IMG/VR virus record: IMGVR_UViG_3300027749_000335
Span: 1-32,236 of that record
Direction: 5' to 3' (one strand)
Source: a virus
DNA length: 32,236 bases
Of the stretch, positions 1,155 through 31,523 are shown piece by piece (the stretch's first letter is position 1; each line of letters starts with the position of its first letter). The notes below the pieces were generated by a model. The model was not told where the DNA came from. It made no database searches and saw nothing but the letters and a program-made list of their open reading frames with translations. Both the position numbers and the translations under genes were made by a program.

Positions 1155-2341
1155 AGAAGCCCTGAGACTTTTCCATAGATCCAGTCCTGCACAGGCTGAT
1201 TGACAACAGCATCAATAACTAGATGGATGCGATCCTGCGCCCCGTTCTGATTTGAGACAGCGTGAGGTTTGCGTGTGTCCAGATACCAAAGGCTTCCTGT
1301 ATTTAGGTGCTTTTGCACCTGAGTGCCGTTGAGATGCCACGCCATGAATCGTGTCTCTGGGTTGGTTTGGATCGGGATGTGCAGGCGTGCGATCTTTCCT
1401 ATAGTTGCGCCTGCCTCTTTGTCTGTTATATCTGCGTGCCTAGACAGCCCGCCATCTGATGCCCTAACTCTCATCAGGCGAACTCTCTGTGTCTCACATC
1501 CCAATAGCTGCAGGATTCTATGAACAGACGGGAACGATCCCCATGCTTCGGTAGGTCTGACTTCGTTGCTCATCAGAGCAGCGTTGTCCTCTTTCCATTT
1601 CTTTGACATTTCTGCTGGCTTAATAATGAACTCAGGATCGTTTGTGAAACCTTTGAGGCTGATTGCACTCCATGATTTGCGAATGTTGTAGGAACTGTAA
1701 TGGTCTGCCCATCCATGATTCGTTGATTTCGCAACATAGTTCTCCAGATCAGACTTGACCGCTTGCAGCATCTCTACATCAACAAATGTTGGGGTTAGCT
1801 TCTCTAGCGTTGCTTTGTCTGATAGCGACATTGGATGGTTTGTGCGAACTATCTGGTTGTCTGTTTTGATCAGGATTGTTTTCAGCTCTGATGAGGCAGA
1901 TACTTTTGATCCTAAACGCTTGAATCCGACTCTCTCTAGCTGCTGTAGTTTCTCGCTGTCCTCAGCGTGCGTTTCAATCCAGATAGTTGATGCTTTTATT
2001 TGCTGCAGCCATTGGCTGAGTGTGCTGTCTGGGATCAGGCTGTTGAATGTCAGATGTTTGATCTGGAAATCATCCTTAGACACATATAGCTCTACATCTC
2101 CGAAGCATTGTTTGATGCTGTTTCGTTTAGCTGTTTTGCCAGACATAAACGCAACAACTGTTGTTCCATCCTCAGCAAACAGTTCTAACGCCTCATCATC
2201 TGTGAGCATCTGTGCGATTTCTGCTTCGTTCGGCATCCCGAACCTGCCAAATGCGTATGGTTTATATCTGTTGAACAGGCTTCTGATGTTTTTCAGGCGA
2301 TCCAAAGCAATTCCCTGTTGCCATGATTCAAGATTCGTCAT
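1151..2341 (-). CDS. GNAT-like domain fused to 2-oxoglutarate/Fe(II) oxygenase
   Basis: The 396-residue protein has two parts. Residues about 20-160 look like a degenerate GNAT acyltransferase, ending in a LERVGFKRLG segment that resembles the conserved GNAT C-terminal strand. Residues about 265-380 match the aspartyl/asparaginyl beta-hydroxylase type of 2-oxoglutarate oxygenase: H302-A-D304 and H360 are candidate iron ligands, and R371 in DRIHLVIDA is the likely 2-oxoglutarate-binding arginine. The start at 2341 is set by a GGAGGA site 8 bases upstream. It overlaps the end of the methyltransferase gene by 14 bases, and its own stop overlaps the PLP gene start. The substrate is unknown. Its place between a DNA methyltransferase and a PLP enzyme suggests oxidation of a methylated or modified base, but a protein substrate cannot be excluded. 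Confidence 0.75.
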   Translation of the reverse strand: MTNLESWQQGIALDRLKNIRSLFNRYKPYAFGRFGMPNEAEIAQMLTDDEALELFAEDGTTVVAFMSGKTAKRNSIKQCFGDVELYVSKDDFQIKHLTFNSLIPDSTLSQWLQQIKASTIWIETHAEDSEKLQQLERVGFKRLGSKVSASSELKTILIKTDNQIVRTNHPMSLSDKATLEKLTPTFVDVEMLQAVKSDLENYVAKSTNHGWADHYSSYNIRKSWSAISLKGFTNDPEFIIKPAEMSKKWKEDNAALMSNEVRPTEAWGSFPSVHRILQLLGCETQRVRLMRVRASDGGLSRHADITDKEAGATIGKIARLHIPIQTNPETRFMAWHLNGTQVQKHLNTGSLWYLDTRKPHAVSNQNGAQDRIHLVIDAVVNQPVQDWIYGKVSGLL

Positions 2342-3767
2342 TGTTTGCTTCCTCCAACCACTGAGGCTCGTTCTCAAAACCCCATTCACCCTCACCCAAT
2401 GTTTCTGTTGTTGCGAACGGATCGCCCTTAGCGAATATCAAAATGTTCTGATGGATTCGTGCGATCTTTCGTGATGCACCGAACATCCTTCCGATTCGCA
2501 ACGCCCATGATCCACTTGATTGCACATAGACGCATTCGCTGTAATATCTGAGCCCTGCTGCTTCAAATGCGTTGATGGTATCGCCAACGAAGTTGCGGTA
2601 GTTGCCTTTTTCATCTCTAATTTCAGAGATAACCCAAACAGCAAACGAGTTATCAACGAGCATTTCTGCGCTGCGCTCAATGATCTTTGCGTATGCAACC
2701 ATGAACTCGTCATAGGTTTTGAAGTTAGAAAGATCTGCTTCATCATCAGAGTACTGTTCAAGATCAAAATACGGGGGGCATGAGAACATTAAGTTGAACT
2801 TCTGTCCGAACTGGTTTAGATCAACAGTCAGAGAATCGCCATTGACCCACTCGCATGATCCTGAACCGTTGCCTATTTTCTCTAGCTGCTCTTTGTTCGC
2901 TTCAACTTGTTCTGCTCGCAGCTCAACACCCTTGTAGTTCATGCCTAGATGTGATGCCACGATTCCTCGCACCGATCCTCCAGCGAACGGATCAAGGATG
3001 TAACCGTTTTCAGGGCAATACCAGCGATACGCCAGCTCACAAATGACAGGATCAAATACAGATGTTCCGTTGTACTGAGGTTTGTCTGAATCTGGAGAGT
3101 TCAAGTAGATTGCGCTATTCGGAACAGTTAAGTTGTCGTTTCTGCCCTGTGATGAAAGGATCGTGTCGGAGAACTTAAGCAGGTTTTCGTTTCTGCCTAC
3201 CTCTGATGAGATGCCGAGCTTCAACCACACATCTCTGCGTTCCCGCCACCAACTTCTGCGACAGTCCAGAACAGAGAACGGGGCTATACCGAAGCGTTTA
3301 GCGATAGTTCCAGTGAATGCGCTCGTAGCGTAATCATCTGTAGATCCTTTGCCTATCTCAAAGTATTTGTTATCTGAAATGAGCACATCCAGATCATCAC
3401 CATCAAACAAAGATCCGTCTAGCCCATCTACCGACTCTGCAAGTTCTTTCAACAGAATCTCTAACCCATCATCGTTGTAGGAAGCCATGTCTGATGTTCT
3501 GTTATCTGCAAGCAGAATCCTCAGTGCATCTTGATCATTTTTCGTATCAACAAACGACACATCAATCTGTTCCCAACCGAGCGACTTAGCTGCTTTCCAT
3601 GTGTGGTTTCCTGCAAGGATTTTCATGGTTCTGCGATCAACAACAATCGGCTTGAACTGACCGTGAGCCTGCAAAGACTGACTGATTACGCCTATATCCC
3701 CTTGTCGCACATTTCGTGGATGAGGTGACACATCATCAATGTTGAGCGTTTTTGTTTCTAATGTCAT
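2328..3767 (-). CDS. ParB-like domain fused to DNA methyltransferase
   Basis: The 479-residue protein starts with a ParB/Srx-like domain (about 1-95) that includes ILAGNHTWKAAKSLGW. A SAM-dependent DNA methylase follows: motif I is LDPFAGGSVRG (258-268), and the catalytic motif is FSCPPYF (328-334), a variant of the D/N/S-PPY motif of amino-methyltransferases that form N6-methyladenine or N4-methylcytosine. ParB-methylase fusions are common in phages and often protect phage DNA from restriction. The start is preceded by AAGGAAACAGC and overlaps the stop of the small zinc protein (ATGA). It is the first gene of a four-gene run ending with the PLP enzyme and HNH nuclease. Which base it modifies cannot be read from the sequence. 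Confidence 0.9.
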   Translation of the reverse strand: MTLETKTLNIDDVSPHPRNVRQGDIGVISQSLQAHGQFKPIVVDRRTMKILAGNHTWKAAKSLGWEQIDVSFVDTKNDQDALRILLADNRTSDMASYNDDGLEILLKELAESVDGLDGSLFDGDDLDVLISDNKYFEIGKGSTDDYATSAFTGTIAKRFGIAPFSVLDCRRSWWRERRDVWLKLGISSEVGRNENLLKFSDTILSSQGRNDNLTVPNSAIYLNSPDSDKPQYNGTSVFDPVICELAYRWYCPENGYILDPFAGGSVRGIVASHLGMNYKGVELRAEQVEANKEQLEKIGNGSGSCEWVNGDSLTVDLNQFGQKFNLMFSCPPYFDLEQYSDDEADLSNFKTYDEFMVAYAKIIERSAEMLVDNSFAVWVISEIRDEKGNYRNFVGDTINAFEAAGLRYYSECVYVQSSGSWALRIGRMFGASRKIARIHQNILIFAKGDPFATTETLGEGEWGFENEPQWLEEANNDES

Positions 3768-25274: not shown

Positions 25275-26579
25275 TTAGAAGGTTGGGGTTACCAATCCCG
25301 TGCCGTTGATTTGTGCGAAAGCATTTGGGTAACGGTTTGCAGTAAACGCTGCATAACCGTACACAACTGCAAGCACTTCCAACTTGGCTGCTGATGGTTG
25401 CTCAAAGCGCAACATCATTGGATCGCCATTGCCCTGTTCCCACAGGTGCAATTCTTGTGCGTTACCAACATAGATGGTGTCTTGGTTCGTTCCTGAGCCT
25501 TGTGCTACCGAAACGGTTGCATCAGTGATAACTGGCAGACCAGCAATGCTGTATCCGCTGTTGCCGTACTGAACTGCGCCGTTACCAACAGCAACAGCGT
25601 TCATTGCGTAAGGTGATGGAACTGCCAGTGGGCGATTCTGTGAGTCAAGTGACGCAAGAATGAAAGCCAAACGGCGTGGGTGCATGATGATCACATTCGG
25701 ACCACCAAAGAAAGTGGTCTGAACCTTCTGAATGGCATCCAACAATTTCGGATACAACTCTGGAACGGTTGGTGATGCGTCAGTGTAAGTGACGGTCTGA
25801 CCTGCAGATGAAAGCAATTCAGCAACAACGGCAGTGTTCAATGAGGTGTGGTATGCACGGACAAGATCGTTCATAACGAGGGTGTCAATATTTGTTCCAC
25901 GCTCAAGAGCCTGACGGGTTACGGTCTGCTGACCTGCATAAGTGTTCACGCTGATATCCAACTTGGTGTCATCCATGTTCGTTTCAGATACAGAAGCCTT
26001 TTCGGTCTGTGCTGCAACAGATGAACCAGTTGTGATCTTGCTCAACGAGATCGTCAAACCAGCAGCAGGAAGTTGATGCTTGTTTGCAATATCTGCGGTT
26101 GGGCGACCTGCACGGGCGTATGGTGCTGCAAGTTCGGTGAGGAACTGTGGAACAACCAAGCCTGCGAAGTTGCTTGAATCAACATCACGGCGTTCAATGC
26201 GTTCCTCGTTCATGTGACGGGCAAGACGCTCTTGTGCGCTGTAATCGTTGTTGAACTGTGCTGCGAAAGCGTCAGCAAGGAACGAAGTCTCAGCCTTTGG
26301 ACTGTAGGTGCGTGCCTCTGACTTAACTACTGCTGGTGCAATCACTGCATCAATTTTCTTTTCTTTGCGCAGTTCTGCTGCCTCAGACGAACGCTTTTCA
26401 AGTTCGCTGTGCTTTGCAATCTGTGCATCAAGTGAACGAACCTCATCAAGTGCAGATGAAATCTCTGTATCTTGTTCTGGGGTCAATTCACGGGCTTCTG
26501 CCTGTGCTGCTTCAACAATGGCTTCTGCCTTTGCAAGTGCAGCATCACGCTTTTCTGTAAGTGTTTTGCTAAATGACAT
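25275..26579 (-). CDS. Major capsid protein (HK97 fold, with delta domain)
   Basis: The 434-residue protein has an N-terminal coiled-coil scaffold part (about 1-75, rich in Glu, Ala, Lys), followed by the HK97-type capsid fold from about 130 (SSNFAGLVVPQFLTELAAPYARAG). Later marks are GPNVIIMHPRRLAFILASLDSQ and FTANRYPNAFAQINGTG at the end. The delta part should be cut off by the prohead protease encoded just upstream. AGGAGACATCAA gives a good ribosome site. No sign of an internal Ig-like decoration domain. Confidence 0.95.
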   Translation of the reverse strand: MSFSKTLTEKRDAALAKAEAIVEAAQAEARELTPEQDTEISSALDEVRSLDAQIAKHSELEKRSSEAAELRKEKKIDAVIAPAVVKSEARTYSPKAETSFLADAFAAQFNNDYSAQERLARHMNEERIERRDVDSSNFAGLVVPQFLTELAAPYARAGRPTADIANKHQLPAAGLTISLSKITTGSSVAAQTEKASVSETNMDDTKLDISVNTYAGQQTVTRQALERGTNIDTLVMNDLVRAYHTSLNTAVVAELLSSAGQTVTYTDASPTVPELYPKLLDAIQKVQTTFFGGPNVIIMHPRRLAFILASLDSQNRPLAVPSPYAMNAVAVGNGAVQYGNSGYSIAGLPVITDATVSVAQGSGTNQDTIYVGNAQELHLWEQGNGDPMMLRFEQPSAAKLEVLAVVYGYAAFTANRYPNAFAQINGTGLVTPTF

Positions 26580-26656: not shown

Positions 26657-28417
26657 CTATCGGCTGCGATACTTCTGAAGTTCAATCTGCGATTTGCGCA
26701 AACGAACACCAGAAGTGATAGCAACAGTAACAGGTGTGATTTCTTTGCGCAACTCTGCCACAGTCTGCTCATAAGCAGGGAAGGTAACAATGCTCACATC
26801 AAACAACTGGACTTCACGAAGTTCACGGGTCATACGATCTTTAGACCAAGAATCCTTGACAGTTCTGAAAGCAAAACTCATTTGTGAAAGATCGCCACGC
26901 TTCATTGCAGACATGACACGAGCAGCATCAGGGTTCATTGGGTCTAGTTGTGCTTCAACTAAAAGCCCACGATTATCCTCAGACAATTTCAATGTTCCTG
27001 ATTTGGTGCGTGCCAACGGTACGCCTTCATGGTCAATCAACAAACGCACATCAGCACCATCATTTAGTGTTTTGGTAAAAGCACCACGCTTCACAAACTC
27101 TGTGAACGGCATTGGATGTGACGGGGTATCCCACATGGCTGCATAACCAACCAAAGTTTTTCCATCCTCTGATGCACGCAATTCAAGATTGGTGTAAGCG
27201 TAACTACGCTTGCTGTCATCAGAACGCACAGCCCAACCAGAAGTTGAACGCTGCTGTGTGGTATCTAATGATGCCTTCAACTGCCAACCCCATTTACGGT
27301 GCATATCAATGCGATCAGCAAGGAAGTTACAAATACCCTGCTCATCAAGTTCATCCGCATATTCGTATGTGCAATTCAATGCTTCCAACATTTGATCGTT
27401 AGAAGCCAGCAATGCTGCAGCCAAACTAGATGGGCTATCTTGCACCATCATTTCATCTACTTTGCGTAATGAAACAAGTTCCTGCAATTCAAACGGTGCT
27501 TCACCATCAAGTTTGCGCACCATCTCTGCAGTTGGATCAATCGCAGAATAAACATCCTCATAAATTGTTTGAAACAAATCATGGTATTGCGCAAAATCCA
27601 TTCCACGAACATTCCAATGTGATCCGTGCGCTTGAAAATACATTGACACAGTTGAAGCAACAAGTGAACGCAATTCCTCAACCAACATCTCTGGCGTAAC
27701 AATTCCCTCAACTTGTTCCTCTTGATCTGCCATAGGCAATACATCACTCAAAGAGCCAGCCACCATGCCTTCTGGCGCAACATCATTTGTGTTGCCATAC
27801 ATATCTCGTTGGTTAGTCATAACAGCCTCTACTTTACACAAATTAGAATTGGATGTACTTCTAGGTTCTTTCAAATCGCTAGGACTGATCGTATGGATGC
27901 CCAACGAATTGTACGCATCCCTAGCCTTAGCGTCATTATCTATTGCCACATTGATTGGTTTAGCAATCTGCAAACGCTTAGCAGCATCTTTCTTGTATTC
28001 GGCTGTGTCCTGCTTTGCATCTTGTTTCATAACCAGACGGTCATATTTAACGCCAGCATCCTTCAATGCTTTAACTGTTGTGTCACGCTGGTTCTCTGTT
28101 CTGCCAGTTATAAGCACTATCTCAAACTTGTCTGCCATAAAGTTCAGTGCATCAATGTTCTTTTGCATTGGGCGTGTTCCAAGACGCAACAAAGTGTCAT
28201 CAATATCACAAACCACAAACCTTCCAGCCTGACGGTTGCGCTTTCCGATCTCGCCTATTGGATCAAGTTTTTCTGCAATGGACTGTGCCACCATACGATC
28301 AATAGCGTCTTGCTTGCTGATGTAACACTTCAGCGTTGTATATGAGCCATCTGATTCTTGTTTTACTGCAGCCCAACCTGAACAATCAGATTGGTTGTTT
28401 GAAATCCCGTATGGCAT
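26657..28417 (-). CDS. HAD phosphatase - Dps-like - prohead protease fusion
   Basis: One 586-codon open frame holds four parts. (1) Residues 1-50: a short Cys-containing domain (DCSGWAAVK...KCYISKQDA) like those found with actinophage capsid genes. (2) Residues 64-180: a HAD domain with D71-I-D73-D74-T75, ITGR (103-106) and AIDND (D160, D162), as in polynucleotide 3'-phosphatase-type proteins. (3) Residues 240-385: a Dps/ferritin-like domain with HWNVRG (H267), H279, D294 and E298 at Dps ferroxidase spacing. (4) Residues 410-560: an S78-type prohead protease with IDHEG (H463) and MSFAF (S514). It follows the portal region and precedes the capsid gene, the usual protease position. An AGAGG site before M200 (27820) could also give a shorter Dps-protease form. 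The added domains may be packaged in the procapsid; that is inference. Confidence 0.85.
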   Translation of the reverse strand: MPYGISNNQSDCSGWAAVKQESDGSYTTLKCYISKQDAIDRMVAQSIAEKLDPIGEIGKRNRQAGRFVVCDIDDTLLRLGTRPMQKNIDALNFMADKFEIVLITGRTENQRDTTVKALKDAGVKYDRLVMKQDAKQDTAEYKKDAAKRLQIAKPINVAIDNDAKARDAYNSLGIHTISPSDLKEPRSTSNSNLCKVEAVMTNQRDMYGNTNDVAPEGMVAGSLSDVLPMADQEEQVEGIVTPEMLVEELRSLVASTVSMYFQAHGSHWNVRGMDFAQYHDLFQTIYEDVYSAIDPTAEMVRKLDGEAPFELQELVSLRKVDEMMVQDSPSSLAAALLASNDQMLEALNCTYEYADELDEQGICNFLADRIDMHRKWGWQLKASLDTTQQRSTSGWAVRSDDSKRSYAYTNLELRASEDGKTLVGYAAMWDTPSHPMPFTEFVKRGAFTKTLNDGADVRLLIDHEGVPLARTKSGTLKLSEDNRGLLVEAQLDPMNPDAARVMSAMKRGDLSQMSFAFRTVKDSWSKDRMTRELREVQLFDVSIVTFPAYEQTVAELRKEITPVTVAITSGVRLRKSQIELQKYRSR

Positions 28418-28419
28418 TT

Positions 28420-28674
28420 TCAGTCCACATCAGGAGTGAGAACACGCATGGTTTGTGTTGATGCAGATGTGATGCCGTAAATAGTTTCATTGAATGGAAC
28501 ATTTAACTGCATTGTTGTACTGGTTGGCAAATGTATTCCTGTTGCTGCTGTGACATCACTGCCGCCAACATAAACGCTGCCTGTTCCTGAATGTAAATAA
28601 CATATACGCTCTTTGTTATCTGCTGCAATCAAAAGTGTTGCTGTAGTTCCAACTGTTATTGCTGATGTTTTCAT
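28420..28674 (-). CDS. Small beta-rich protein between portal and protease
   Basis: The 84-residue product is Thr/Ala-rich with alternating hydrophobic residues (TSAITVGTTATLLIAADN, SGTGSVYVGGSDVTAATG, TIYGITSASTQTMRVL), consistent with a small beta sandwich. Its ATG overlaps the portal TGA (ATGA). Small genes here may encode decoration or adaptor proteins of the capsid; no family is assigned. Confidence 0.65.
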   Translation of the reverse strand: MKTSAITVGTTATLLIAADNKERICYLHSGTGSVYVGGSDVTAATGIHLPTSTTMQLNVPFNETIYGITSASTQTMRVLTPDVD

Positions 28675-29879
28675 TGTGTCACCTGCTCATTAGTTATTGC
28701 ATCAACACCAATAGTCGGTAGTGCGCCACCTGCAACACCTGCAACAGCGGTGCCTTGAATACCAAGAACGAATTGGTCTCCACCGTCATAAGGCTCACGG
28801 TTCTCATACTGGCGTGCCTCGTTAGGTGTCAAAGTTCCAGACATGATTTGTAGATGTTGCGCTTTAACACGGGTTTCCAAATCTGCACGCAAGAACTCAT
28901 CAGGATTCAAATGAATTTCCTCAAATGGATCAGGCAACATTTCGCTAAACAATGATTCAAGACGGCGCACCCAACCCAACAGCGTGTATTTATAAAAGGT
29001 TGATCCCAATGCTTCAATGTTGGCATAAGTTTGTTTATCGCCACCGCTACCCAAAATTAGATGCAATGGGATTCTGTAGGTGCGTGCAATGTCACGAATG
29101 ATGGATTCTTTGTGTTCCAACATTTGCATATCGGCTGCACTGGTTGTGATGCTGCGCCATTTCAAACCGCCTTGCAAAACTGCTGGTCTGCGCTTCTTGT
29201 AATGCGCTTCCTCCCAGTTGTCTTTGATTTGTTTTGCTTGCTCTGCAGTTAAGTTCTGATCTGTTTCAAGAATTGATGATGGTGTTGCACCTTCACCGTA
29301 GAACTGTGCAAGGAAGCGATCCATCGCCAAGCCCATACCGATTGTGTTGCGCATGGATTCAAGTGGGCTTAAACCTCTTGACTGTTCAGGGAATATCAGC
29401 CAGTGAACAGCATGGATATCGTCACTGTTATATTTGTTGTTGCCGATTTCGTAAATCAGTTTTCCGTTGGTGTCTTTGCTAACTTTTTTGACGGAGTTGG
29501 GGTGAATATTGCGCATCTCAAGTGGATAACCGTCTGCACCTCTAGGGGCATAGATGTAGGCGTTGCCATGTAGGGCAAGAGCCAGCATGAGTTGATGCAC
29601 AAACTCAAACATTGTTTGTTCGTCATTAGGTTTCCTAAAGGCTTCTGGTTTTTCTACTCTGCGTACTTTTCCACCTTCAGTGGTGGAAACTTCTATAGGC
29701 ATGATTGCGATTGAATCAGCCAGCAAAGTGATCGCACCAATTACAGCAGATGAAGCAAACACGGTAAGTTCTGTGACGATCTCGCCTGAATAGTTTGCGT
29801 AAAATGGGCGTGCAGTTATCTGGTACGGGTCAATGTTGGTTGGCAAAGAACGCTGTTCAGATTTCTTCCACAAACTCAT
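28671..29879 (-). CDS. Portal protein (HK97 family)
   Basis: The 402-residue protein has the portal pattern: VFASSAVIGAITLLADSIAIMPIEV, LMLALALHGNAYIYAPRGADG, VHWLIFPEQSRGLSPLE, RDIARTYRIPLHLILG and a C-terminal LEDLETRVKAQ-like helix with GTLTPNEARQYENREP. It would form the twelve-fold ring for DNA entry and tail attachment. It follows the large terminase, separated only by a 47-codon membrane gene. Full length. Confidence 0.95.
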   Translation of the reverse strand: MSLWKKSEQRSLPTNIDPYQITARPFYANYSGEIVTELTVFASSAVIGAITLLADSIAIMPIEVSTTEGGKVRRVEKPEAFRKPNDEQTMFEFVHQLMLALALHGNAYIYAPRGADGYPLEMRNIHPNSVKKVSKDTNGKLIYEIGNNKYNSDDIHAVHWLIFPEQSRGLSPLESMRNTIGMGLAMDRFLAQFYGEGATPSSILETDQNLTAEQAKQIKDNWEEAHYKKRRPAVLQGGLKWRSITTSAADMQMLEHKESIIRDIARTYRIPLHLILGSGGDKQTYANIEALGSTFYKYTLLGWVRRLESLFSEMLPDPFEEIHLNPDEFLRADLETRVKAQHLQIMSGTLTPNEARQYENREPYDGGDQFVLGIQGTAVAGVAGGALPTIGVDAITNEQVTQ

Positions 29880-30019
29880 GCTGCCAAGCCTCCACCGATT
29901 ACCAAGAGAACGCCTAGCACAATAACACTAATTGGAACATTGAAACTCCCAATGCCAATAACAATGCAAGCACCACCAATAATTTCTATTGCTGTTGTAA
30001 CTGCTTCTCGTTTAGTCAT
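29876..30019 (-). CDS. Tiny membrane protein between terminase and portal (47 aa)
   Basis: The product begins MTKREAVTTAIEIIGGACIV and is almost wholly hydrophobic after residue 8 (two possible membrane segments, IIGGACIVIGIGSF and PISVIVLGVLLVIGGGL). The ATG at 30019 lies inside the terminase end; a longer open frame to 30109 would read through terminase codons. The stop overlaps the portal ATG (ATGA). Very small membrane genes occur at this position in other actinophages; role unknown. Confidence 0.65.
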   Translation of the reverse strand: MTKREAVTTAIEIIGGACIVIGIGSFNVPISVIVLGVLLVIGGGLAA

Positions 30020-31523
30020 TCCAAATATCCAATACTGATGGTGAGGGTTGATTTTCTGGTTTGCTTGTCGCACGATCCAATGCCATAACCATAGCAATGC
30101 AAGCGTCAATCTTTCGTTTGCTTTTGCCTTTGCTCAATGTCCAGCCTTTATCGCTCATACGCTGCGCTGCAGATAGGACTTGATCTGTGAATGTTGGTGC
30201 GCCATCATGGGCAATCTTCTTGGCAACGATCATCTCGTAGGCGTTACCGCACGCAGGAATCATCCGTGATGCTGACTGAGGAAATGTAACTAAATTCATG
30301 CCCTCATCAGATAGGTATTCTGCGCTGCGCTCAAAGAAGGCGGGGTCATACACGAACTCCCGCACCTCATAGGTGTTGTGCAGTTCCCGCAAATGCGCTT
30401 CTACGCCAGCGATATCAATACCTTCCAGCTCTGGATTCCAGATTTTCGCACGCAGAACAACCCGATCCTGTTGTGGCTGTGCGATACAAACAGCAATGGT
30501 GTCACGCTTCAACGCCATGTCTATACCAACCCACACAGGCAGATCAGGGTCAAGCTGATGTGTATGCGACACACATTGTTCCCATGCGCCCGAAGGCAGC
30601 CATGATTCTTGGCTTCTAGTCCAGTTGTTCAAACGCCATCTGCGCACACTGGATTCAGCAGACTGTTTCACTGCTGCAGCTAGATCCTCAGGATCAAGCA
30701 GCCCCTCAGCAAGGTTAGGGTTTGCTATCGCCCACGCTTTACGATCATTCAAATCACAATCCTCTGGGGCTTCCCACCACCAGAACCCGAAAGTATCGTC
30801 ATCTACCTCGCCTGCAGCTACCTGTTTCCCGTACTGGTACATCTTTCCTGCAGGGGAATCCAAGTCAAATCCTGCTGTCGTGATGCTAATGCTTATCGGT
30901 TCTATTCTGTTTCCAGAACCCAACTGCATCTGGTCAAGCAGATCACTGTTTGATTGCCCCCACACTTCATCTATGAGCGACACGGATGGGTTCAAACCAG
31001 CTAAACCTTTGACTTCGCTGGAGAGAACACGGAACACTGAGCCGAAGCGGGGCATCTCTATTGCATCACGGTAAATCTTTGCTTCGCTGTTTAGCAGTGG
31101 GCTGTTTTGGATTTGCTGTTTTGCTTCACCGAAAATAATCCGTGCCTGCTGGCGATCATTGGCGATTGCGTAGATTTCAGATCCAGCCTCTCCACTGATC
31201 ATGGTGAAAACGCCGAGCGCACTCATCATAAGGCTCTTACCGTTCTTGCGTGGCAATCCAATTAGCGCACGCCTGTAACGAAGCGTGCCTGTTTCATCAT
31301 TCCGTTCAAGCAGAGATCGCAGCAACCACTTCTGCCAGTCCGTGAACTCCAAAGGCAGTCCTCCCTTGAAACCTTTTAACACCTGAAAGTGCGCCTCAGC
31401 GAACGCAATCAGTTCATCTCCGTCTGTTTGCAAATACTTTCTTGGCGTATAGAACGCTGGCTTCCACTTATTTAGTGGCTGCACGCTTTTCGGCAATGCG
31501 CCTGTGGAGATCGCTGAACTCAT
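30012..31523 (-). CDS. terL: Terminase large subunit
   Basis: The 503-residue motor-nuclease has a Walker A-type motif IGLPRKNGKS (88-97), Walker B VSLIDE (181-186, D185 and E186), and an RNase H-like nuclease domain with D335 (WVGIDMALKRD), D393 (FVYDPAFF) and D473 (KIDACIAMVMALD). It pumps DNA into the prohead and cuts it. The N-terminal overlap with the small terminase gene is 56 bases, fairly long; the ATG at 31523 is the first in frame, and a GTG at 31484 is an alternative. It belongs to the phage terminase-like family common in actinophages. Confidence 0.95.
   Translation of the reverse strand: MSSAISTGALPKSVQPLNKWKPAFYTPRKYLQTDGDELIAFAEAHFQVLKGFKGGLPLEFTDWQKWLLRSLLERNDETGTLRYRRALIGLPRKNGKSLMMSALGVFTMISGEAGSEIYAIANDRQQARIIFGEAKQQIQNSPLLNSEAKIYRDAIEMPRFGSVFRVLSSEVKGLAGLNPSVSLIDEVWGQSNSDLLDQMQLGSGNRIEPISISITTAGFDLDSPAGKMYQYGKQVAAGEVDDDTFGFWWWEAPEDCDLNDRKAWAIANPNLAEGLLDPEDLAAAVKQSAESSVRRWRLNNWTRSQESWLPSGAWEQCVSHTHQLDPDLPVWVGIDMALKRDTIAVCIAQPQQDRVVLRAKIWNPELEGIDIAGVEAHLRELHNTYEVREFVYDPAFFERSAEYLSDEGMNLVTFPQSASRMIPACGNAYEMIVAKKIAHDGAPTFTDQVLSAAQRMSDKGWTLSKGKSKRKIDACIAMVMALDRATSKPENQPSPSVLDIWND

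Follow-up and report, generated by a model that had tools for sequence, protein, structure and literature searches.

Proteases of the S78 family work within procapsids, as is established for HK97 and its relatives, and a domain fused to such a protease enters the procapsid too unless it blocks assembly. The usual picture of a phage head is a container for DNA, with a small number of proteins inside. Polyvalent proteins combine several unrelated effector-like domains in one polypeptide and are encoded with head genes (Iyer et al., 2017, PMC5512222), and MuF polymorphic toxins attach variable, C-terminal toxic domains to a head-morphogenesis protein (Jamet et al., 2017, PMC5576092). Domains of the ADP-ribosyltransferase and Zeta kinds are packaged, or thought to be injected, in other phages, as in T4 Alt and the MuF toxins (PMC5512222, PMC5576092). 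Among non-viral shells, the HK97-fold encapsulins hold ferritin-like cargo brought in by targeting peptides, one class of which is closest to Dps (PMC6668986). Phages also encode ferritin-family proteins as stand-alone genes, including a free Dps in gut Gratiaviridae (PMC8008677) and the ferritin Sajous1 gp217, found by mass spectrometry of the phage (PMC10892097); the authors propose host-protection or tail roles for them, and no fusion to a prohead protease is reported.

The window analysed here, a 32,236-base IMG/VR virus record, holds a head gene in which the S78 protease is itself joined to a HAD phosphatase domain and a Dps domain (Table 1). Because free phage Dps, polyvalent proteins and ferritin-loaded encapsulins are already known, the novelty lies in the carrier and the cargo: head-carried multidomain proteins have precedents, and what is new is an S78 protease as carrier with Dps and a Pnkp-type phosphatase as cargo. 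The gene is read on the minus strand, from an ATG at 28417 down to 26657, and its translation of 586 aa has no internal stop. An earlier note on this DNA, which gave no strand for the frame, had described HAD, Dps and S78 domains in one intact frame; the single open reading frame and the Pfam, PHROG and fold matches bear this out, and a short N-terminal module, absent from that list, makes a fourth, in the order N-terminal module, HAD, Dps, S78.

Gene order around the fusion is small terminase subunit, large terminase subunit, portal, an 84-aa open reading frame, the fusion gene, HK97-type capsid and head-tail connector, so that the protease gene lies between the portal and capsid genes as is usual for the S78 family. 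A described counterpart is phiPsal1 gp006 (AUV61415.1), an S78 (HK97-family) protease with an N-terminal extension, which shares the N-terminal module, the S78 domain and the order terminase-portal-small ORF-protease-capsid, but has a Cys4/HiPIP-like stretch together with an M2859-like segment (see below), and lacks both HAD and Dps. Since the capsid protein has mycobacteriophage capsids as its closest named relatives and the terminase is closest to that of the Pontimonas phage phiPsal1, the host of the window virus is likely actinobacterial. The GTDB metagenome-assembled genomes (MAGs) that hold Dps-S78 contigs are labelled Actinomycetota (L179) and Betaproteobacteria (L178); assignment through these labels was dropped because the binning of phage contigs into MAGs is unreliable, and the host call therefore rests on capsid, terminase and phiPsal1 similarity. 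The window phage and its Dps-bearing relatives are all uncultured. Elsewhere in the window, on the minus strand, a ParB-like N-terminal domain is joined to an N6/N4 DNA methylase (2328-3767), and neighbouring genes at 408-2395 resemble an aspartyl/asparaginyl beta-hydroxylase (E 3.7e-9) and, weakly, a PLP-dependent enzyme, a pair that is unusual in a 32-kb phage.

Table 1. Features of the fusion gene and its neighbours in the 32,236-base window. dN/dS values are for comparison with the 91% identical relative L002.
Feature	Coordinates	Strand	dN/dS	Remarks
Terminase large subunit	30012..31523	-		Pfam and PHROG match; closest named relative Pontimonas phage phiPsal1 (39%)
Portal protein	28671..29879	-		PF04860, E=1.4e-75
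Small ORF, 84 aa, in portal/protease gap	28420..28674	-		sister phages, L104 and phiPsal1 among them, have a small ORF in a comparable place
Whole gene, four-module prohead protease	26657..28417	-		586 aa; stop 26659-26657; architecture repeated in independent contigs
N-terminal module, aa 1-58	28244..28417	-	0.03	predicted beta-beta-beta-alpha; pLDDT about 85-90 over residues 1-50
M2859 insertion site	28231..28243	-		close relatives L002 and L005 bear an extra module of ~116 aa here
HAD phosphatase domain, aa 63-185	27863..28231	-	0.020	T4 Pnkp 3'-phosphatase fold (predicted); D71xD73xT75, T104-G-R, K142, D160
Linker 1, aa 186-240	27698..27862	-	0.40	predicted mostly disordered; pLDDT <50 at 186-237; net charge -6
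Dps domain, aa 241-387	27257..27697	-	0.024	four long helices plus short BC helix 311-318; ligands H267, H279, D294, E298; Q283 replaces canonical Asp
Linker 2, aa 388-402	27212..27256	-		predicted disordered; pLDDT <50 at 386-402
S78 prohead protease domain, aa 403-560	26738..27211	-	0.068	likely triad H463, S514, D540
Basic C-terminal tail, aa 561-586	26660..26737	-		net +5; partly helical
Major capsid protein, HK97-type, next downstream of fusion gene	25275..26579	-		PF25209, E=3.7e-8; phrog_2263, E=3.3e-51

The protease domain matches Peptidase_S78 (PF04586) over residues 410-557 (E=5.8e-43, 147 bits against a cut-off of 21) and the head maturation protease family phrog_80 (E=8.5e-57). H463 and S514, which together with D540 form the likely catalytic triad, are invariant in 171 of 171 distinct S78 domains, in all of which residue 540 is D or E. 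An AlphaFold2 model of the whole protein, made with the relatives collected here in the alignment, has a mean pLDDT of 72 and consists of separate domains on disordered linkers.

When residues 1-185 were modelled alone (pLDDT 88.6), the top fold match was the T4 Pnkp 3'-phosphatase (Z 17.1, rmsd 2.0 over 119 residues), and T4 and bacterial Pnkp entries took ranks 1-8 among the matches listed (Z 16.1-17.1). Nir2 follows at 15.4, a small gap, then a Deinococcus HAD hydrolase at 13.7 and lipin/Pah at about 13. Profile matches are to Acid_phosphat_B (PF03767, residues 98-150, E=5.4e-8) and to the polynucleotide kinase family phrog_415 (E=4.9e-12). HAD motifs I-IV (DxDxT, T, K, D) are present; across 22 sequences D71, D73, T75, T104 and K142 never vary, and D160 hardly does. 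The window domain thus resembles the T4 phosphatase in predicted fold and motifs but lacks a kinase domain and is joined to a capsid protease. The suggestion in the earlier note that the HAD part acts on nucleic-acid 3' ends gains support from this closest fold and the intact motifs. A stand-alone gene of the same HAD family, which begins where an S78 gene ends, was seen in one other contig (L286:3349-3762).

The central region matches Ferritin/Dps in Pfam (residues 247-388, E=3.6e-15) and the Dps family phrog_3636 (E=1.5e-22), and its modelled helices (242-269, 275-302, 311-318, 329-356 and 360-387) include, besides four long ones, the short BC helix that is typical of Dps. They superpose on solved Dps structures, best on TpF1 (Z 18.8, rmsd 3.1 over 145 residues), and the highest Foldseek TM on the target is 0.85; phmmer places the region in the same Dps family. 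The middle parts of the protein accordingly have predicted HAD and Dps folds, as the earlier note had proposed. Residues H267, H279, D294 and E298, which we equate by alignment with the E. coli Dps ferroxidase ligands H51, H63, D78 and E82, are the same in all 49 distinct fused Dps domains. The fifth ligand (E. coli D67; here Q283) varies among Q, L, N, G, A, E and M in the same 49 domains, so ferroxidase activity may be reduced; H. cinaedi CAIP, also among the matches, likewise aligns Gln at this position. In comparison with T. pallidum TpF1, L. innocua Dps and H. cinaedi CAIP, the window domain shares the fold (Z about 18-19) and four of five ferroxidase ligands, but is joined to two other domains, varies at the fifth ligand and is strongly acidic (net -16; mean -12 over the 49 fused domains). 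It has no Lys-rich DNA-binding tail, the 25 aa preceding the domain averaging -3 over the 49. Such a tail occurs in some Dps members only and does not define the family, the Agrobacterium Dps protecting DNA without binding it (1o9r, title). Because the domain is acidic and without a Lys-rich tail, iron and peroxide chemistry is favoured over DNA binding, and the binding or shielding of DNA that had been envisaged for a packaged Dps is disfavoured.

By the Nei-Gojobori estimate, in which dS of HAD and of the N-terminal module is near saturation, dN/dS is near 0.02 in HAD and Dps against 0.068 in the protease and 0.40 in the first linker, which indicates that purifying selection on HAD and Dps at least matches that on the protease and that the linker is weakly constrained. 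The N-terminal module also heads S78 fusions, stand-alone upstream head proteins and ADP-ribosyltransferase/Zeta proteins, and a procapsid-targeting or assembly role is possible for it. No conserved cleavage motif was recognised in the linkers, and inspection by eye found no cleavage motif common to them and the capsid N-terminal arm.

The fusion recurs widely. At least 60 distinct IMG/VR proteins, the window's included, have Dps and S78 in one frame, and by their Dps domains they fall into 21 clusters at 90% identity, or 8 at 70%; the numbers rest on the best 80 matches per fused query (whole protein and each domain) with profile annotation, and show occurrence rather than frequency. The order HAD-Dps-S78 was found in at least nine further contigs (L002, L196 and L198-L204). 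L002 is 91% identical to the window protein; the others compared share 37-40% identity with it in the N-terminal/HAD/Dps part and 41-44% in S78. The same domain order, for which the earlier note had advised searching, does exist elsewhere in independent contigs. Dps-S78 also occurs in two MAG contigs of GTDB genomes from other projects. Since two contigs (L029, L038) carry the reverse arrangement, S78-Dps, the linkage of Dps to the protease is independent of any one domain order, and in four more (L021, L022, L039, L051), representing another head type, a Dps gene overlaps the end of an XkdF-type (PF14550) protease gene. In L021 a MuF gene lies upstream of the XkdF-type protease/Dps pair.

A tree of the Dps domains suggests that HAD joined Dps-S78 more than once, with two origins: the window and L002 proteins stand apart from the L196 group, and two changes are needed, in nearly all bootstrap trees, the well-supported branches forcing one only. 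Several relatives have solo Dps genes, and many carry S78 without Dps or HAD, which indicates that the cargo is dispensable.

The earlier note knew of no standard phage system with this combination. That view holds for named phages and for the literature searched: within the sensitivity of tblastn, 50,697 phage records yielded no Dps relative in fusion with a prohead protease, the Dps query matching one record and a second family member 21 weakly, none annotated as a prohead protease and all in separately annotated genes or in records without annotation; and no description of such a fusion was found in the literature searched, which took in no preprints and few subscription journals. It does not hold for uncultured phages, in which the fusion is common, and the predicted viral structures of UniProt already contain unremarked relatives, such as A0A6J7WPK9, a 763-aa 'Prohead protease' that aligns over most of its length.

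With two or more unrelated effector-like domains on one polypeptide, encoded in the structural locus of a mobile element, the window protein has the architecture of the polyvalent class, and related proteins bear ADP-ribosyltransferase and Zeta domains; here, however, the carrier is the protease itself. The terms Dps, ferritin and phosphatase are absent from the main text of the polyvalent-protein study, where 'prohead' occurs only in a reference title (PMC5512222). The MuF toxins differ in that MuF is the carrier and the toxic cargo C-terminal, whereas here S78 is the carrier of mostly N-terminal, protective-looking cargo, and Pfam and PHROG scans gave no MuF match in the fusion protein. Encapsulins, especially those with IMEF cargo, offer the likeness of an HK97-fold shell around a Dps-related protein, a location inside the shell that we infer for the window virus. 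Their mode of recruitment is not what we find: the window cargo is fused to a protease, and the phage, with its virus capsid, has portal and terminase genes.

We propose that the prohead protease is a covalent cargo carrier, by which a Dps and a 3'-phosphatase would be taken into the head against oxidative damage, and give this reading a probability of roughly one half. It is supported by the fusion, the predicted folds, the intact active-site residues, purifying selection, recurrence and the linkage to two classes of head protease. The position of the gene between the portal and capsid genes and the intact S78 triad are in keeping with it, as are the three Dps-protease linkages (Dps-S78, S78-Dps and a Dps gene after an XkdF-type protease) the presence of the N-terminal module with HAD on ADP-ribosyltransferase/Zeta head proteins beside the protease, and the precedent of ferritin-like cargo in HK97-fold encapsulins. 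Carriage inside the head, as put forward in the earlier note, is the best reading of the genetic linkage, with head entry itself the conjectural part of it. Against the proposal count the variable fifth ferroxidase ligand, the linkers in which no conserved cleavage motif was recognised, the many relatives that do without the cargo, and the size of Dps cages: at about 9 nm across they cannot pass through a portal intact, and only unfolded subunits could be injected.

The S78 domain would bring the entire polypeptide into the procapsid, where the protease would cut the capsid protein and then itself at the flexible linkers. This would release into the head, together with the DNA, an acidic Dps-type ferroxidase, probably as cages, and a Pnkp-type 3'-phosphatase. 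Dps-type proteins oxidise Fe(II) by means of peroxide, and oxidative strand breaks commonly leave 3'-phosphates, the substrates of Pnkp-type phosphatases. With peroxide as its oxidant, the Dps could thus oxidise Fe(II), sequester it and in this way suppress Fenton strand breaks, while the phosphatase could convert 3'-phosphate break ends into repairable 3'-OH, in the head or after injection; given these two chemistries, a joint task in protecting and repairing packaged or newly injected DNA is plausible for the pair. The fullest form of the proposal, in which the capsid has a built-in oxidative-damage kit whose Dps cages and DNA 3'-phosphatase enter on the protease, cut themselves free and stay with the DNA, we offer as tentative. 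If correct, the virion would be a compartment in which metal and peroxide are managed, and so the viral analogue of the ferritin-loaded encapsulins. The one enzyme that normally enters the procapsid is here linked to a ferritin-family domain and a DNA-end phosphatase; many phages show such a linkage, and its arrangement is not always the same. Should the cargo stay in the head, iron and peroxide chemistry would be managed around the genome, a functional link to the encapsulins of the same fold would follow, and the fusion point would be a natural site for loading proteins into HK97-type capsids. The N-termini of prohead proteases are worth screening for more packaged domains.

The cargo might instead be packaged but become active in the next host cell, with HAD working on nucleic-acid ends or against nuclease- or nucleotide-based defence and Dps handling host iron and peroxide early in infection. 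This is attractive in that proteins encoded next to the protease combine the N-terminal module and HAD with ADP-ribosyltransferase and Zeta domains, kinds that are listed for injected polyvalent proteins (PMC5512222), but an acidic four-helix Dps from a 12-mer-forming family would be hard to eject and Dps is not a known anti-defence protein, so that we find injection doubtful. The readiness of Dps to form 12-mers, a natural property of the family, would suit a structural role, in which Dps oligomerises so that proteases are gathered or positioned in the procapsid, the modules being digested or lost after cleavage, and the free variation of modules among relatives agrees with this. A pure scaffold, however, has no need of metal ligands kept in 49 of 49 domains or of HAD catalytic residues at dN/dS near 0.02, and many relatives do without Dps; we therefore regard such a role as unlikely.

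Similarly improbable, in our estimation, is a cytoplasmic task before assembly, with the fused Dps shielding the infected host from oxidative stress. Free Dps-like proteins of gut phages are so interpreted (PMC8008677), and the solo Dps genes of several relatives fit, but repeated fusion or tight linkage to two prohead-protease classes, in both orders, is left unexplained. Finally, an assembly artefact or a chance frame through separate genes is conceivable in that the N-terminal module and S78 are separate neighbouring genes in sister phages. Against this, HAD-Dps-S78 frames persist in independent contigs down to 37% identity and codons are constrained through every domain; the same fusion also turns up across different metagenomes, in many contigs, and twice among the GTDB MAG contigs of other projects. 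This excludes in practice the assembly join that the earlier note had named as its possible undoing, and we give it next to no weight.

Beyond HAD and Dps, the stretch N-terminal to S78 is a variable bay, in which we find the N-terminal module, M2859, a Cys4 stretch, DUF5824, a Tudor-like domain, HAD and Dps. Among the loci nearest in S78 sequence, 23 have a separate N-terminal/M2859 gene just upstream of a bare S78 gene. Read-through of a stop codon joining such split genes was considered and rejected, since the S78 frame lies directly behind the upstream stop, and in frame with it, in some split loci only, by hand count about one case in three, as chance would give. The N-terminal module and HAD lead a protein with an ADP-ribosyltransferase domain beside the protease in L014/L208 and L205 (L014:1530-3917, which adds a Zeta-type kinase domain; L205:3447-5285), and the multidomain proteins of L014 and L205 are likely head-carried effectors.

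M2859, a module of ~100 aa that is part of phrog_2859 (L002:4315-4623 and 36 relatives), is common in the prohead proteases and head proteins of these phages. At about position 28237 of the window, L005 has in frame a ~116-aa M2859 between the N-terminal module and HAD, whereas the window has none; AAGCGCAAC (KRN) stands at the window junction, and the L005 copy of it lies at the far edge of the M2859 module. Since L005 is otherwise near-identical, the module appears to have been recently lost or gained cleanly, and modules of this bay thus come and go cleanly. M2859 has no useful sequence match in the PDB. Its members gave recurring sub-threshold Pfam matches to PF21790 (17 of 37, best E 0.0015); identity as an 8-oxoguanine glycosylase was rejected, a profile comparison with three genuine OGG-like proteins giving 1% probability over 18 columns. 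The module has the conserved motifs ARH.VD and A..LWGG. Often beside it stands a four-Cys stretch that is weakly HiPIP-like (E 0.01-0.09; L006, L007, L010, L104 and L184, the last being phiPsal1), and, by a profile built here, it stands beside Dps in L009.
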